DNA from: Syncephalis fuscata
Lineage: Eukaryota > Zoopagomycota > Zoopagomycetes > Zoopagales > Piptocephalidaceae
DNA length: 64,000 nucleotides
Direction of reading: 5' to 3'
Assembly (NCBI GenBank): GCA_025786725.1
Contig: JAHLTZ010000019.1
Coordinates: forward strand, 1 to 64,000
Shown here piece by piece: positions 4,603 through 60,458 of this stretch. The notes beneath the pieces are model-generated. The model saw only the letters and a list, made by a program, of their open reading frames with translations. It had not been told where the DNA came from and did not search any database. The translations under genes and the position numbers were made by a program. The number at the start of each line of letters is the position of its first letter. Positions within the stretch are counted from its first letter, which is position 1.

Positions 4603-5578
4603 ATGCCGTTTATTAACAATACCGATCCAACGCAAACCGAGTGGAGACATAATGCTGCAAAGAAATGGGGCATCGATCTTCATCCGCTTGGCGAAATGAT
4701 GTGCCTGATTTCTTGATGGAAGCTACAGGTCATACCGACGAACAGCGCCTCCGTTTAACGGGCATACAGATTCAGCTTGTATTTTCTGTTATGCTATTTT
4801 TTATCTTTTTATACAATATTATTGTAACGACCAAAATGGTTCTATCACGACCATATAGCATATTTTCATGGTGCTGTTTAATGCTTGCTATTAATGGTAT
4901 GATATATAGTATAACGCCTATATTATTTTTGATAGGCTATGACTTTGGTTGTAGAGCATTGGCATGGTGGTCTGGATTCCTTATTTCGTTAGGAGTAATT
5001 CTTAATAGCATGATTCTTCTTTTAAAAGTCAATCTGGTTCTTTACCAAAAGAAATGGGTCACTTATATCGGCATTATTTTTATATTACCACAGTCAGGTT
5101 TTGCTTTTATTTTGATATACTGCTGCTTTTTTACTCTAGAAGCCAAAATTGGCTGCTCAATCTATTATCCACCTAGCTTCCTTTGGTACTGGGTTGGAGT
5201 AAATATGCCAATCAACGTGTTTTTTTCAGCTGTCTTTTGCCGTATTGCTCTAAAACAATATTATATGTTTGGATCTGATGCATGGAAGCGACTAGCACAA
5301 GATGGAATACAAACAATATGTTTGGCCTTAGCAATTAATCTTGCTTGCTGCATTGCTATAATTAGCTGCGTTGGCAGTGCTAACCGTGATATGCTTTTTC
5401 CCGCCGATTGGTAAGTACTAGTGGTTGACTGAATACACATAGCTAAACTGTTTATAGGATTACTGTTGCAACCATATTGATTAGACACTGCCAAAATATG
5501 GGGAATGGAAACCACTCTGCATATCGTCCCAAGACTTACCATATTCTTCACTTGTCGCAAATCGCCACTGCAAACTAA
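4603..5578 (+). CDS. Seven-helix membrane protein, family unknown (paralogue of the gene at 16896)
   Basis: Two exons (4603-5410 and 5458-5578) joined through a split Trp codon encode about 310 residues. The N-terminus has an Asn-glycosylation-type NNT, then hydrophobic helices follow at roughly residues 50-70, 80-105, 115-145, 150-175, 190-215, 235-255 and a shorter one crossing the intron. The paralogue at 16896 shares the WCCL motif, a loop of the form QY-x-FGS-x2-WK-x-LA-x-DG before helix 6, and the same intron position. This topology suggests a receptor-like protein; no known receptor family is recognised. The ATG frame and the helix frame differ by one base near 4690, in a GG run, which fits loss of one G. 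The gene lies between the two copies of repeat family A. Confidence 0.7.
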
Positions 5579-16769: not shown

Positions 16770-16895
16770 CCAGTTTTAAATCCTCAGCATGCATTTAGTC
16801 TTGTAAAATAAATGGCTTCAGCTTCTTCTATATCCTTCATAGCAGCACTTCATTCATCGCACTATATACACACATCATACTACTTTAACTAAAGC

Positions 16896-17857
16896 ATGTT
16901 TGGCCGTAGTATTGCTTTAAAAATGAACATGTCGCATCATAATAGCACCAATCATTTCTACCCCATGGGTGCTTATGGGTACATAGAAACAAACTTTGAT
17001 AATCTAGAAACGATGCGAGCACATTTAGCATATATTTGGATACAGCTTATAATTCATATTATTATAAGCTATGTTCAAGTGCGCAACATTAATATCGCGC
17101 TTCGGCTAGTTATAGAACAGCCGCAAGCACTCGTAAGATGGTGCTGCTTGGTACCTTCAGCTTTATGTATTAGCATAACAATATTTACAATCATATTCGA
17201 CTTAAGCAATGTCTTTTATTTGGATGCACCAGCGCTTTATTCTGGATGGGCCATTCCTATCTGTATCATGTGCTACAATATAATTTTGCTGCAAAAAGCA
17301 TACATGGTGTCCCATAAAAGCTGCTGGGTACTTGTAATAGGTATAATATTAATTATCGTGGAAGTGGCAATTCCTGTTGTAATGTTAAACGCTACAGTTA
17401 TTGCTAATATTGATTTATTTCGTCGTGGCTTTTTTGCTTATCCAAAGACATTGATTGCAATGTGGTTCTGTGCATCTCTAGTCGTCAACCTATTCCTCTC
17501 ATCAATATTCAGTTACATGGCTTATAGGCAATATCGGATATTTGGTTCTAAAACCTGGAAGCATTTAGCTAACGATGGAACTCGATCCATGTGCCTTGTT
17601 ATATTCTTTAATACAATATGTGCCATTATAATGTTTTTTTGCAATATCTTGGATATTGTTACATTTTCCTATTTTATTGAATGGTAAGTTTAGCTAATTT
17701 TAGTATCTTACTTCGTATTGACTTGAAATTATTTTAGTTCAATATGTTCAATATTTTAATTGAGAACTGTCGCAAGACACGCAATACATTAGGTGATGCT
17801 AATCACCCAAAAACCGAAAGAATGCTTCGTATTTCGCAAATACCATCGCCAATTTAG
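16896..17857 (+). CDS. Seven-helix membrane protein, family unknown (paralogue of the gene at 4603)
   Basis: Exon 1 (16896-17683) and exon 2 (17738-17857) encode about 303 residues. The N-terminus contains an Asn-glycosylation-type HHNST and then seven hydrophobic segments. It shares with the gene at 4603 the WCC motif after helix 2, the loop QY-x-IFGS-x2-WK-x-LA-x-DG-x3-MCL, the terminal ILI-x2-C block and the identical intron position after a split Trp codon. Across the junction one base is missing for the frame to continue; an extra G at the acceptor (17737/17738) would restore alignment with the paralogue exactly, matching the one-base losses elsewhere. An extracellular N-terminus and polar intracellular loop suggest a receptor. 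Function unknown. Confidence 0.72.
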
Positions 17858-34703: not shown

Positions 34704-34872
34704 ATGGCTACTATTCACTTTGTTGTAAACATTTTGCAATCTTTATTTTACTCGTTTGTTTTAATAAATCAATACCAGCATGAAATTTCTATTGCCGTCG
34801 TCTGTACCATCGTCGTGGCTTTTGTGACTAATAAAGTCATGGTGGATGCTATGCCAGCTCTGATCCATCGTG
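34704..34872 (+). CDS. Putative first exon of a small membrane protein, upstream of the intron-like array
   Basis: An ATG in strong context (GCCATGG) opens 56 codons with two hydrophobic stretches (FVVNILQSLFYSFVLI and ISIAVVCTIVVAFV). The exon can end at 34872 before a GTATGT donor at 34873; unspliced it reads only six more codons to the stop at 34890-34892. The segment AFVTNKVMVDAMPALIHRG weakly resembles the N-terminus of the ALG7/DPAGT1 GlcNAc-1-phosphate transferase, but none of the rest of that enzyme is present downstream, so a relic of it is only one possibility. The next 1 kb is the tandem array of intron-like units. Confidence 0.4.
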
Positions 34873-35935
34873 GTATGTTATGCTTACAATAGATATGCAA
34901 GTTAAATATTGCATTGAAAATTCTAATATTTTGGATTTACATTGATAGAACGTGGCATTTTATAGAAAATAACTTGATACTAAACATATGCCATTATGGC
35001 TTAATAAACCGTGTTAATAGATCGTAAGTGGCATTGTGTATTATTCAGCTATGTGCTAAACATATGTCATGTACTGCGTGTTTAATAATATTTTAATATC
35101 TGGTAAGCGACATTGTATAAGGATCATCATGTATTAAATATATGCTGTGCATTATGTGTTGAATAACTTATGTTAATAGCTGGTAAATGGTACCGTATAC
35201 TAATCAGCTGTGCACTAAAACATACATCATAAACCATCTGTTTTATTATTTTTGTTGACAGCCAGTAAGTAATACTGCACAACAATTAAATATGCATTAA
35301 AATAAACCGCTTATTATATATTTAATAATCTGTGCTGATAGTTTGTAAGTGGCATTGTATATTGATCAACTTTAGACTAAACATAGGCCATACACTGTGT
35401 GTTTGATAAATTGTCTTAATAAGTGGTAAGTGACATTACATATCAGTTAACTACACGTTAAACATAGGCCATGCACTGTGCGTTTACTGATCTGTGTTAA
35501 TAGCTGATGAGTGGAATTGTATAGTAATCAGATATGCACTAAGCATATTGCATACTCTGCTTGTTTAATAATTCATATCAATAGAAAGTAAGTGATATTT
35601 CATATTAATCACTTCTGCACTAAATGTATGTCATATAATATACGTTTAATAACTTGTATTCGCAGGACGTAAGTAGTATCATGCACTAATCAGCTATGCA
35701 TTAACTATATACCATACGTTGCACGTTCAATGATTTGTATTAATAGTTGGAAAGTAACATTTTATACTTATTAACTATAGCTAAATACGTGTAATACATT
35801 ATGTGTTTAATAAGTTTTGTTAATAGGACGTAAGTAATATTACATCTTATTACTCTATACGCTAATTATATGTAATCAAGCTACTATGTCTATGCTCATA
35901 CTTGATTTGCATCCAGTAATTACCAAACATAATAG
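34873..35935 (+). repeat. Tandem array of about 12 intron-like units separated by 3-base spacers
   Basis: Units of 69-79 bases repeat with a period of about 80. Each begins with GTAAGT or a variant and ends in AATAG, CAG or similar, and successive units are separated by a spacer of 3 bases (2 in one case). Unit starts: 34952, 35024, 35103, 35183, 35265, 35345, 35426, 35507, 35588, 35669, 35750 and 35830; a 76-base leading unit (34873-34948) fits in length but not in sequence. Units have diverged strongly from each other but keep GTAAG/GTAAA in nine of twelve and AG at the end of all but the unit ending at 35099. A CTAAAC- or ACTAA-like branch-point word lies mid-unit. The spacers themselves are not conserved. 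The last unit could end at the AATAG at 35935. Confidence 0.8.
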
Positions 35936-36004
35936 CATTATAAATAAATGTGCTGTATTATTCACTATATACTCCAGCGCATTTTGCTCATAGTATAAGG
36001 GTTA

Positions 36005-36188: not shown

Positions 36189-37384
36189 TTATGGGGCAAT
36201 GATACGTGCTTGATTGATCGATTCCATAGGTACATTGGTGAGCAGCGTAGTATTATCATCCGCCTAATAAATGGTTAGTATATAAGTGTATTTCATAAAA
36301 ATTATGTTAATGCTACTTACCTTAACTGGGCAGTCAAAGTTGGCGGTACTCTTGAACTCGGGAAATTGGACTTGAATGGCCCCTACCTTCCATAAAGCCT
36401 CTACGGTATATGTAATGACGATGGGGCGGGGCGGATGATTCCCACGGATAGCACAGCGATCCGCCAAGTCGGCCAGAATAAGACTTTTTGGGTCATCCGC
36501 TTGGGAGTAGCGTAACGTAAATGGAAACCGAATGGTTGTCGTGTTGCGTGCAGAAACATCGACATCATCAGCTGTGCCATTGGCCAGCAGTAGGTTTGGC
36601 ATCACAGGCAAATAAGCCTAGATTGCAATATTTGTTAATCAATAACGATTAGCTGTGTATGCTGTTAATTTACCTTTGCTTTGATTGATGTGAACTGAGC
36701 ACCCAGGAAATTTGGATTGGTAACCTGGAGTAAAAGGAAAAAGTTGAGTACGAATCCGTTGCCCACCTGTTGGTACGGTGAGCCGGGTGGCATTTCAACG
36801 TTAAATGTGCCAAGCTCTGGAAGACGGGCCCATAGAAAGAAGGCCAAAAGAAAAGCAAACACAGCAAGTAGCGTCACGCAGATACCGTATGCACATAGTC
36901 GAGGACATCCATGTTTAGTGAGGCCGCAAGCATCGGCAAATCGGCCTGGACGTTTACGACGATGCATTCGTCCATCATGAGCAATCGGCCCGCCTAGTGC
37001 AGCTGCATCTATTCCAAGTACATTGGCCTCATGCTGGTCAAGAGGAAAAGTACTTGCATGTAGCAAAGTTGGTTCATTTTTACCCGTTCCAAACTTATGT
37101 GTACTAGTATCGGTGGTGGTGTTTGCGTGGTGAAGCGTATTCTGTGCTGACGACAAAGTAGTCGTGGCATGGCCGTTTTCAGCACCACTTTCCGTGATTT
37201 CAGATGTTGTCGATACAACTACAACTACATCGTCGCCTACGACAGTATCTGAAGATGCTGGGTGGTGATAGAAGAGCGGGCAAAGTTGCGCCGCAAGTAT
37301 TTGAACATAGTGGTGAAAATATACAGCTAACGAAGGTTTGAACAGGCAATAAACCGCAATAAACAAAAACAGCGTTATAAACAA
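36189..37384 (-). CDS. Single-pass membrane protein with LEA_2-like domain
   Basis: Exons run from about 36675 upward and continue at about 36610-36320 and 36265-36189. A basic stretch (MHRRKRPGRF) precedes one strong membrane helix (ICVTLLAVFAFLLAFFLW), then a beta-rich extracytoplasmic region typical of fungal LEA_2/Tag1-like proteins: NFFLLLQVTNPNFLGAQF, IRFPFTLRYS, LADLADRCAI and VQFPEFKSTANFDCPV. Such proteins sit in the vacuolar or plasma membrane; their biochemical role is unclear. The frame is open back to 37384 through a Thr/His-rich region but contains no ATG before 36967. The start is therefore either that Met or an unseen upstream exon. Confidence 0.7.
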
Positions 37385-56819: not shown

Positions 56820-59800
56820 TTATTGTAGCGGCATTGTAGTCGTAGTGGCTTTGGTGGTACCGCCTAAAGCACTAATGCCGCCAGCTAAACCAACATCGTT
56901 GGTATTGGCAACGGCATTGTCGATACCATTGTTGCTAATAACTCCAGATGATCCTATTAAATTAAAATCGGTGTTAACATTAGCACCGTTAATAGTTTGG
57001 ACATCAGTGGCTGTAGTAGTGCCGGACAATGGACGTGGACCATTGAATGTTGGCTTTTCAACTGGCATAGCTTGCGTCGTTGCTCTGTTGTCTTCAAAAA
57101 TATTAAGCCACTTAAAAGACCGCGACGTTGACGAATAACAGATTGTGATGCTTTACCGGCAACATTGCTCAAGACATCAACTTGAGCAACATTACGATCA
57201 GATTCTCTTATAACTGTTCCGTCCTTAAGAACTGTAACGGAATCCATAGCTGGAAGAACGGAAGCACCAGTGCCTACTGCAGCTACATCATCAACATATC
57301 TTTGTTTGTTATCGGCTGTATCGATGTTATGTGTGGCATCGCCCAATACATTTGCTAATAAATTTGTATTAGCAATTCTGCTTCCTGCTTTTCTTGTAAC
57401 ACTGCCATCGTTGTGTTTAGTTTGTGTCACTGATTGGGACAAAACATCGGTGCCACCAGCAAGATTGGCCAAATTATCGATGCCGGTAGATGTATCGCCA
57501 TTATATTTAGAGCTATGAATTGTATCGCCTAGCAGTCCTACACCATTATCAAGTGATAGCAAGCTAGTAGTCTGTGTTTGAGTAGATTCTTCTTCACCGG
57601 CCATTGGCTTAGAATTCATTGAGTTCTTAGCAGTATCGGCCATCATTTGTCAATGCTTCCTTGCTCATTGGCTTGCCATTAACTGATCGGAAATGAGTAT
57701 TGAGTGCGTCTAGCTTAGTACCAAATCCCAAAACATCATCGGTCTTTACGTCGGAGTCTCGTGTATTCATGTTGTCTAGAAGAGCACGTCGATCGTAATG
57801 AAGTGTTGTCGACTTGGATGCACCACCAAGCAACTTTGTGCCTACACCGGCACCTAATAGATTGGATAGGCCAAGGGAGTTTTCAATACCTTCGGAAGAA
57901 CCACCACTATGGCCATCTCCATTCAAAACTAACACGCCACCAAGACCGTCGACATCATTGCTTAAAGTAGTAGCAGTAAGGACTTTAGCATCCGAACCAG
58001 TAGCACGTCGTTGTAATGGCATTGTAGTCGTAGTGGCTTTGGTGGTACCGCCTAAAGCACTAATGCCGCCAGCTAAACCAACATCGTTGGTATTGGCAAC
58101 GGCATTGTCGATACCATTGTTGCTAATAACTCCAGATGATCCTATTAAATTAAAATCGGTGTTAACATTAGCACCGTTAATAGTTTGGACATCAGTGGCT
58201 GTAGTAGTGCCGGACAATGGACGTGGACCATTGAATGTTGGCTTTTCAACTGGCATAGCTTGCGTCGTTGCTCTGTTGTCTTCAAAAATATTAAAGCCAC
58301 TTAAAAGACCGCGACGTTGACGAATAACAGATTGTGATGCTTTACCGGCAACATTGCTCAAGACATCAACTTGAGCAACATTACGATCAGATTCTCTTAT
58401 AACTGTTCCGTCCTTAAGAACTGTAACGGAATCCATAGCTGGAAGAACGGAAGCACCAGTGCCTACTGCAGCTACATCATCAACATATCTTTGTTTGTTA
58501 TCGGCTGTATCGATGTTATGTGTGGCATCGCCCAATACATTTGCTAATAAATTTGTATTAGCAATTCTGCTTCCTGCTTTTCTTGTAACACTGCCATCGT
58601 TGTGTTTAGTTTGTGTTACTGATTGGGACAAAACATCGGTGCCACCAGCAAGATTGGCCAAATTATCGATGCCGGTAGATGTATCGCCATTATATTTAGA
58701 GCTATGAATTGTATCGCCTAGCAGTCCTACACCATTATCAAGTGATAGCAAGCTAGTAGTCTGTGTTTGAGTAGATTCTTCTTCACCAGCCATTGGCTTA
58801 GAATTCATTGAGTTCTTAGCAGTATCGGCCATCATTTGGTCAATGGCTTCCTTGCTCATTGGCTTGCCATTAACTGATCGGAAATGAGTATTGAGTGCGT
58901 CTAGCTTAGTACCAAATCCCAAAACATCATCGGTCTTTACGTCGGAGTCTCGTGTATTCATGTTGTCTAGAAGAGCACGTCGATCGTAATGAAGTGTTGT
59001 CGACTTGGATGCACCACCAAGCAACTTTGTGCCTACACCGGCACCTAATAGATTGGATAGGCCAAGGGAGTTTTCAATACCTTCGGAAGAACCACCACTA
59101 TGGCCATCTCCATTCAAAACTAACACGCCACCAAGACCGTCGACATCATTGCTTAAAGTAGTAGCAGTAAGAACTTTAGCATCTTGAGTAGATGGAACAG
59201 CCAACTTTGATACTTTTCTAAATTCATTATTGTTGGGCAAATCTTCAGTGGGCTCCACAGCTGGCTCTGCATCCGTATTTTTGTTGTCATTAGTAGGTTC
59301 TGGACCTTGTGGCATCTCATCGGCAAAAACGATGTTTATTCTCTTGCGTCGGTGAATTTCATATCCATCGCGGCGTTGCATGACTACTTTTGGTGTTTCT
59401 ATTGAATGAAAAGAAGTAAATGATGGATTATTACCACTGTTAGTTGTACTGCCAATAAAATTAAATGAAAGGCCGCCGCCGGCAGCATCAAAGAAATTGA
59501 GTGAATCATCGGTGCGTGCGCTTTGAGACTGGCTGGCAAAACCAAGCAAATTGCCCGCAATGTTATTTCCAAAACCACTAGAACTCTGATGCATACCTAT
59601 TACTTTACGGATATGTGGCTGAGCCGACTGAGCCGACTGGGTCGTTGTTTGTCTTCTGTAGATTGGATGTGGATTTTCGTAGTGCACATCCAGCTCGTCG
59701 CGCTTAGTCAAAGCTGGAGTCTTTGCCATTGGCTTTTTAGCATCGTTTACTGAAGCAATTCCAATGTTTTGCGTCGAACCAAGAATATTGCTTCCACCGG

Positions 59801-60458
59801 CAAATCCACCACCATTAACAAATTTAGATGCGGTGTCTGTGTGACCGTTATTTGTTTGGTCGCTAAAACCGAGAAGGTTAAAGATGCCGCTACCGCCAGC
59901 GCCAACGGCACTTTGACGTGCATCAAAGTTATCTAGATTGTCGGAAGACTTGGTGGTTGCCGAGTCTTGAGTGAATCCAAGTATAGCACCTGAGCCACCA
60001 TTGCCAATCAGATTGGTGAATTGCGTCGATGAGTCCGTATGGCCATTGGATTTGGCATCGGCGTGCCCAAGAAGATTACCTACGGTATCAAATCCAATGC
60101 CACTGGTGCTCATATGAGTGCTTGGGGCCATTGGTGCTGGCTTTGCAATCGATCTACGTGCATAGCCAGAGGACTGTGGTCGTGTAAAGAAATTATTTGC
60201 TTCGACCACCGACGAGTGCTCCGGCTGCCAGTTTTGACGACGTACAAATTTGGGTACAGAGCCGCGTAAGGTTGGCTGCTGTCCCATTCGTAGCAGCGTG
60301 CCTCTTACTGGGTCTTTAGCTAAAGCCGAGTGCACCATTCCATGATGGTCATGGTGATGATTTAGCTGCGGCTGCTGGATTGCAGCAGCATCAGTTAAAC
60401 TAAGGTTGGTAGCTAATACCAACAAAAGTGCAGCTGATAGTAATTGGCTGGCGCCCAT
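56820..60458 (-). CDS. Large secreted repeat protein with dibasic sites and an in-frame tandem duplication
   Basis: Single exon from the ATG at 60458. Signal peptide MGASQLLSAALLLVLATNLS with cleavage near LTDAA. The first ~420 residues contain repeated motifs around NLLGFSDQTNNGHTD (also NLLGHADAKSNGHTD and NLLGFASQSQ) and many Arg-Arg or Lys-Arg pairs followed by polar segments. Then comes a ~388-residue Gly/Asn/Ser/Thr-rich module with GIENSLGLSNLLGAGVGTKL, present twice because of a 1,191-bp tandem duplication. The second copy has two lost G-run bases near 57648-57656 and one lost A near 57107 (three in all, so the frame recovers), reading to TAA at 56820. Without correction the frame stops at 57627 (943 residues). 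The layout suggests a cell-surface or Kex2-processed secreted protein; no family is recognised. Confidence 0.78.
56830..57992. repeat. Tandem duplication, copy nearer the 3' end of the gene
   Basis: Matches 58018-59183 over its whole length. I count only about three substitutions and three one-base losses. The copies are separated by 25 unique bases (57993-58017) that encode a linker with a dibasic RR. Confidence 0.95.
58018..59183. repeat. Tandem duplication, copy nearer the 5' end of the gene
   Basis: Partner of 56830-57992, same orientation, intact reading frame. Corrected period 1,191 bases, which is 397 codons. Confidence 0.95.

Follow-up and report, generated by a model that had tools for sequence, protein, structure and literature searches.

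A decayed tandem array of candidate one-codon exons and its putative secreted-peptide-precursor family in Syncephalis fuscata

Among the closest described systems, the MEG genes of Schistosoma encode secreted proteins whose signal peptide is conserved and are composed of 10–20 short exons, mostly multiples of three and most of them 15 bp long (range 3–81 bp in the abstract and 6–81 bp in the text), separated by introns of 100 to almost 5000 bp, and they are poorly annotated by automatic means (PMC10526429). Compared with the available part of that description, the fungal family analysed here is similar in its signal peptide (judged by eye), its symmetric tiny exons and its poor automatic annotation, whereas it differs in that nearly all inner exons are 3 nt long and stand between tandem, mutually alike introns of 60–91 nt (PMC10526429). 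The bicycle genes of aphids are putative effectors with about 17 exons on average, the internal ones nearly all starting at codon position 2, and a related gene contains more than 100 micro-exons (PMC9168663). The internal exons of the fungal family also start at codon position 2, while neither one-codon exons nor tandem alike introns appear in the part of the bicycle-gene description that was available for comparison (PMC9168663). Moreover, single exons of 3 bp or 1 nt have been described in Drosophila homothorax (PMC7392893) and Fusarium CYP621A (PMC12940212), together with a microexon in Trichoderma Xlr2 (PMC11121469). These show that exons of 1–3 nt can be spliced, but each of these cases involves one tiny exon in an ordinary gene, in contrast to the dozens that follow one another in the fungal arrays. 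On the other hand, introners (PMC9860276) and stwintrons (PMC12403724, PMC8469720) are, in the sections available, families of sequence-alike spliceosomal introns like those of the arrays, fungi included. However, introners have insertion sites dispersed over many unrelated genes, some with target-site duplications, while the array introns follow one another in tandem and, where exon 1 was found, belong to one gene family, and stwintrons are nested, one splitting a splice element of another, while the array units lie head to tail with 3-nt spacers. The components, namely spliceosomal introns, micro-exons and secreted peptides, are known. The preliminary description of the locus had named no described counterpart, and no arrays of one-codon exons were found here either in the open-licence PMC literature.

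The locus lies in a window of 64,000 nucleotides, by which the whole stretch of DNA analysed is meant, at the start of contig C101 of the Syncephalis fuscata assembly (Zoopagomycota, Zoopagales). Another gene of the window is 97% identical in its match to argininosuccinate synthase of this fungus. Intron-like units of 69–79 nt with short spacers had been described at 34873–35935 and were found there (Table 1). Out of 12 spacers described, 11 are 3 nt long as reported, while the single 2-nt spacer depends on cutting the sequence as AATAAG/TG (35424–35425), and the neighbouring units favour AATAA/GTG. Within the array, the spacers read, in order, ATC, CTG, CTG, CCA, TTT, [G]TG, CTG, AAA, GAC, TTG and GAC. 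The degenerate units and the degenerate acceptor pointed out before (units at 34952, 35507 and 35750, acceptor at 35099) were confirmed, and an additional acceptor at 35423 (ATAAG) was found to be shifted or lost. The coding exon described before the array exists, at other limits (Table 1); the ATG near 34704 was not upheld, lying by eye in what is the 5′ UTR of paralogs. This exon ends in ...CGTG followed by GTATGT, the same as in the paralogs, and its length compared with most of them implies a shifted frame. The intron-like segment that follows looks, in a comparison by eye, like a fusion of the family's first intron, at its start, with the closing part of a later pre-array intron, the small exons in between having apparently been lost. 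As for the final exon that had been placed after the AATAG at 35935, the sequence matches the last intron of locus L009 up to about 35872, and from about 35862 it aligns with L038 sequence lying 3′ of a polyadenylation-like region, past the 3′ UTR; moreover, no AG-NN-TAA-Y motif (found in the last exon of paralogs, see below) was detected 3′ of about 35872 in the window. The last exon thus appears, from these alignments, to have been deleted. With its shifted first exon, several dead splice sites and no last exon, the window copy fails as a working gene and is a relic of its family. Tandem Repeats Finder returned 14 rows for the window, none of them inside 34873–35935.

Table 1. Layout of the window copy (positions in the window).
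Feature	Position	Strand	Remark
Exon 1 of the family (encoding the signal peptide), degenerate	34780..34872	+	93 nt, vs 94 nt in most paralogs
First intron-like segment, GTATGT...GATAG	34873..34948	+	unmatched by the 80-nt unit profile
Array, 12 units by the family profile	34952..35876	+	introns 69–79 nt, 3-nt spacers
Degenerate donor GTGGCA	34952..34957	+	
Degenerate acceptor, ATAT in place of ATAG	35096..35099	+	
Acceptor shifted or lost; ATAAGTG, then GTAAGT	35420..35425	+	
Degenerate donor ATGAGT	35507..35512	+	
Degenerate donor GAAAGT	35750..35755	+	
Start of the family's last intron, truncated by a deletion near ATTATATG	35830..35872	+	alignment with L009
Sequence located past the 3′ UTR in paralogs; last exon and TAA absent	35862..35966	+	alignments with L038 and L041

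The window array matched at least 133 places in the 28.95-Mb assembly (E ≤ 0.001, with 40 of the 160 first-look candidates scored). The unit of about 80 bp does occur next to other exons, as the preliminary description had envisaged, since arrays were found at 39 other places, most of them preceded by exon 1. These were fetched with their flanks and form, together with the window, a comparison set of 40 sources, some of which are near-copies of each other (L016/L017, L024/L027 and L033/L034/L039). A profile built from the window units and iterated once detected 944 units in the 40 sources, window included, those of each source being all on one strand. A total of 895 junctions were classified, 860 of which had both sites intact, and in 849 of these 860 the spacer was exactly 3 nt long; one 2-nt spacer was found in L012. 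Genome-wide, a two-unit pattern mostly blind to the intron sequence gave 2462 exact matches with 3-nt spacers and none with two 4-nt spacers, while 65 and 21 matches were obtained when the second spacer was set to 4–14 nt and 0–2 nt, respectively, and the reversed pattern, used as a control, gave none in every variant. These counts, together with the 133 matches, place the array beyond chance. Scaling from the fetched arrays (476 matches for 893 junctions), the genome would hold about 4600 junctions, a figure that near-identical contigs may inflate. Furthermore, at least 150 relatives of exon 1 were found in the genome (313 candidates), and all arrays with exon 1 belong to one gene family, in which adjacent spacers are unalike. 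Near-identical arrays were also observed as inverted duplicates on opposite strands of contig C57 (418514–419351, +, and 474845–475682, −) and of contig C2 (519421–522801, −, and 537055–540443, +). A related insert of at most about 290 bp lies within five arrays (L052:2162–2450, L040:3147–3410, L018:3743–3959, L019:2282–2446 and L021:2340–2507), its copies being 80–88% alike to that of L052 over the matched part. One end of this insert resembles tRNA promoter boxes on the reverse strand, and we take it to be perhaps a SINE; Rfam gave no family for the loci L040, L021, L052 and L053.

A comparison of the conservation of splice-site positions with that of the rest of the unit had been proposed, and over the 944 units, which typically open with GTAAGT, contain YTAA and close with TAG, the donor, YTAA and AG columns were kept in 95–100%. 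In particular, the donor columns G1–T6 were kept in 95–100%, the TAA of the inner motif YTAA (columns 33–36) in 98–99%, and the final AG in 100% of the units aligned at that place, where column 1 was reached by 889 and column 78 by 849 of the 944 units, and local alignment flatters the end columns, not the inner motif. Between YTAA and the acceptor, AG was observed 58 times against 1503 expected from composition, while upstream of YTAA the depletion was far weaker (651 against 1182); the former is the pattern that would result from use of the first AG downstream of the branch point as acceptor. Intron length, in the 811 introns between clean junctions, ranged from 60 to 91 nt (median 79), and the lengths were not multiples of three (234, 232 and 345 in the classes 0, 1 and 2 modulo 3), so that intron length drifts while spacer length is constant. 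Intron identity was 72–74% within arrays and 70% between them, falling slightly with distance within arrays (from 0.738 to 0.724, and 0.700 between arrays). The units are shown by these patterns to be under a splicing-type constraint, and we infer that the array introns are spliced in vivo. Other traits of the units were that YTAA is placed some 42 nt upstream of the acceptor, unlike an ordinary minus-strand intron near 36260–36330 of the window, whose TACTAAC is close to its acceptor, and that columns outside the splice motifs differ mostly by transitions (A/G, C/T), perhaps through a mutational bias.

The spacers were read as codons in the three possible intron phases, a phase-1 codon being made of the last letter of one spacer and the first two of the next. 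With phase-1 introns, stops appeared in 2 of 768 codons, one of which, in L033, terminates the array, whereas 2000 within-array shuffles averaged 27.2 stops and never gave fewer than 14. Phase 2 gave 75 stops against 82.0 expected in shuffles, and phase 0 gave none in 720 against 13.8 expected. Synonymous codon usage, referred to 11 long ORFs of the window (4067 codons) and to 500 shuffles, scored +0.225 for phase 1, above all 500 shuffles (maximum 0.212), −0.325 for phase 0 and −0.130 for phase 2. Phase 0 was rejected as the reading phase in spite of its lack of stops, as its product would be 68% hydrophobic, its codon usage was the worst, TAY was as rare there as TAR, and exon 1 ends in phase 1. 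Phase 1 is also fixed from outside the spacers, by the end of exon 1 and by the downstream exon with TAA. The first exon of the family, ATGAAGCTTTCTATTGCC...CGTCGTG followed by GTATGT, leaves one letter over. The motif AG-NN-TAA-Y was found 3′ of the last donor in 34 of 40 sources, compared with 34 of 800 control windows; in L012, L016, L017, L018 and L042, which are among these 34 sources, it stands at a different spot from the other matches. A conserved C-terminal domain after the array was likewise considered and rejected, given that in phase 1 the TAA stands at its start, so that the sequence reads as 3′ UTR. Spacers that would create a rival acceptor (YAG) or a rival donor (GTR) were scarce, with 1 against 15.7 and 13 against 50.7 expected, respectively. 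However, AG-initial spacers, which place AGAG at the acceptor, were commoner than expected (37 against 15.8), and this counts against the codon-exon reading. Among 1667 pairs of alike junctions, which are not strict orthologs, so that no positive selection is claimed, spacer positions 1–3 differed in 58%, 34% and 62% and introns in 12.5%; these spacer differences fit with rapid change in the first two positions of the codon. With an open phase and a genome-like codon usage, the spacers of the family behave, in sequence terms, as protein-coding exons would, the window copy itself being broken.

Kexin-processed secreted peptides of fungi have a signal peptide, RR/KR sites and a short variable peptide; the predicted products of the array family would be similar in these respects, and the gene architecture is different. 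Exon 1 precedes 36 of the 40 analysed arrays, window included; it is usually 94 nt long and encodes a signal peptide (judged by eye), mostly with a dibasic RR at its end, and a second dibasic site, LAKR, is common to many members. Products were predicted with a splicer that follows site, branch and AG rules and no frame rule, with weights set by hand from the arrays, and that was run on 42 sources. It recognized exon 1 in 38 of the 42, missing L022 and L043, which do show one. Leaving the window aside, 37 loci had exon 1, and of their 1004 inner exons 931 were 3 nt long, a few others being of 6, 9 or 15 nt. Seventeen of these 37 loci remained free of stops at least through the last 3-nt exon, and three of the seventeen contained an exon whose length is not divisible by three, while the other 20 met an early stop; some of these irregularities are errors of the model (L020 is open in another reading), and the rest are due to dead sites, inserts and slips. 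Of four held-out arrays, L049 and L050 yielded complete Cys-rich secreted peptides by in-silico splicing, the predicted product of L049 being MKFSIAVVCTVVVALIAATAMVDANPALVRR-ANSKCTDACKAACKTQGASAPADKRAEWIKNCISGVCKC and that of L050 of a similar kind. L051 presented 36 consecutive 3-nt exons, open in phase 1 and phase 0 alike, and L052 was irregular and contained the insert. Predicted peptides of other family members were Pro/Arg-rich, Ser-rich or helical-looking. Pfam gave no family above the cut-off for eight family proteins, and when the spliced L049 peptide and an alignment of eight family proteins were used as queries against protein sequences, all hits listed were Syncephalis fuscata proteins (2 and 14, respectively). 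A search for TGY spacers gave 8 matches and led nowhere.

Members of the family without introns were also found. The NCBI protein P0121 combines the family signal peptide with a Cys-rich tail, and its coding sequence occurs at two places in the genome, uninterrupted by introns. In L053–L055, which are intronless, the codons run directly into TAA TCRAYG, the last-exon sequence of the array genes (AATAATCGATGG in L049 and AATAATCAATGG in L050). Intronless paralogs share with array genes both the signal peptide and the 3′ sequence, and their upstream flanks are alike too (by eye), so they are not simple retrocopies located elsewhere. P0124, P0126, P0131 and P0132 are intronless as well, P0124 and P0132 having a PLAKR segment similar to the one in the window's subfamily, and both subfamilies seem to contain array and intronless forms. 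When 150 exon-1 relatives were scored, 96 ended at residues 31–34, that is, at the exon-1 boundary, 9 at 35–38 and 45 at residue 42 or later. The five public models placed in the genome (P0121, P0124, P0126, P0131 and P0132) were all intronless, none having spliced tiny exons, and the models P0122 and P0123 apparently run into the first intron (by eye), so that public annotation lends the tiny exons no support.

With a probability of about 0.9, the window array is what is left of one gene from an extensive family of secreted-peptide precursors in Syncephalis fuscata, in which the peptide would be built from phase-1 one-codon exons. This reading draws on the array geometry, the splicing constraint, the depletion of stops in one phase, the signal-peptide and TAA exons standing in phase, and the intronless paralogs, all of them shown by the sequence. 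On this evidence, duplicated spliceosomal introns with micro-exons adding one codon each in phase, which was one of the meanings proposed earlier, is strongly supported for the family and does not hold for the broken window copy. After the signal peptide, the rest of the peptide would be encoded almost wholly by 3-nt exons between related phase-1 introns of about 79 nt, the last exon giving the TAA. The spliceosome would act by intron definition, each splicing event adding a single codon and the events probably proceeding from 5′ to 3′, because a 3-nt exon can hardly hold the factors for both sites simultaneously. The precursor would then be cleaved at RR/KR. A minisatellite born from an intron, that is, a non-coding repeat containing splice-like words that is either not transcribed or excised whole as a single large intron, had been proposed as well, and the tandem units, their many copies, the degenerate window copy and the dispersal of alike units over the genome are what it would give. 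It was nevertheless judged very unlikely, given that the splice words are kept though the spacers differ, AG is excluded only downstream of YTAA, stops are depleted in one phase, a signal-peptide exon stands before 36 of 40 arrays and coding paralogs without introns exist. Also at odds with the depletion of stops is the proposal of a recursive or nested, stwintron-like substrate, where the whole array would form a single long intron, taken out step by step with the 3-nt spacers discarded; in this case the strict 3-nt distance and the codon usage would also be without reason. Each acceptor does stand 3 nt before a donor, like recursive sites in a looser sense, but held-out arrays spell complete Cys-rich peptides, and this proposal is likewise very unlikely.

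How the one-codon exons arose is a separate matter. Array growth by tandem duplication of a unit made of an intron plus 3 nt, which would by itself leave frame and phase intact and let the codons diverge, is suggested by a block of five successive spacers that is repeated in L009 (AAT CCG AAT CTA CTC) and by the slight fall of intron identity with distance. The exons could be real and yet have been born by introner-like insertion of introns into an intronless peptide gene, with which the relatedness of introns within arrays (72–74% identity) and between them (70%) and the presence of intronless paralogs in both subfamilies would agree. However, insertion once per codon and always in phase 1 is hard to explain, and the L009 repeat and the falling identity are as tandem duplication predicts, so that insertion throughout is considered unlikely; the founding intron may have been an insertion. 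The intronless paralogs correspond to the predicted spliced form, an en-bloc loss of introns through cDNA being likelier than their repeated gain, although the direction of evolution is itself conjectural.

Tiny exons have so far been known as exceptions within ordinary genes, whereas here dozens of successive one-codon exons would be present per gene. Such a family would offer a natural test of intron definition, splicing order and splicing fidelity at the size limit, would illustrate how a protein can lengthen by single residues through duplication of an intron together with a codon, and would represent a class of genes that is invisible to standard annotation. As nearly all inner exons are 3 nt long and in phase 1, the frame would survive the omission of any one of them or of several in succession. 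Tentatively, a single array gene might thereby yield, by alternative splicing, a library of secreted peptides differing residue by residue, with gain, loss and shuffling of single codons at the DNA level. Syncephalis is a parasite of other fungi, and, if such a library were true, it would be a device for peptide diversification in a parasite of this kind.

Elsewhere in the window, three other ORFs were observed, with no Pfam match for any of them. Those at 4653–5414 and 16893–17687 (+) encode 253 and 264 aa, look like multi-pass membrane proteins and are of one kind, and the ORF at 57627–60458 (−) encodes a secreted-looking protein of 943 aa, of low complexity and with internal repeats.
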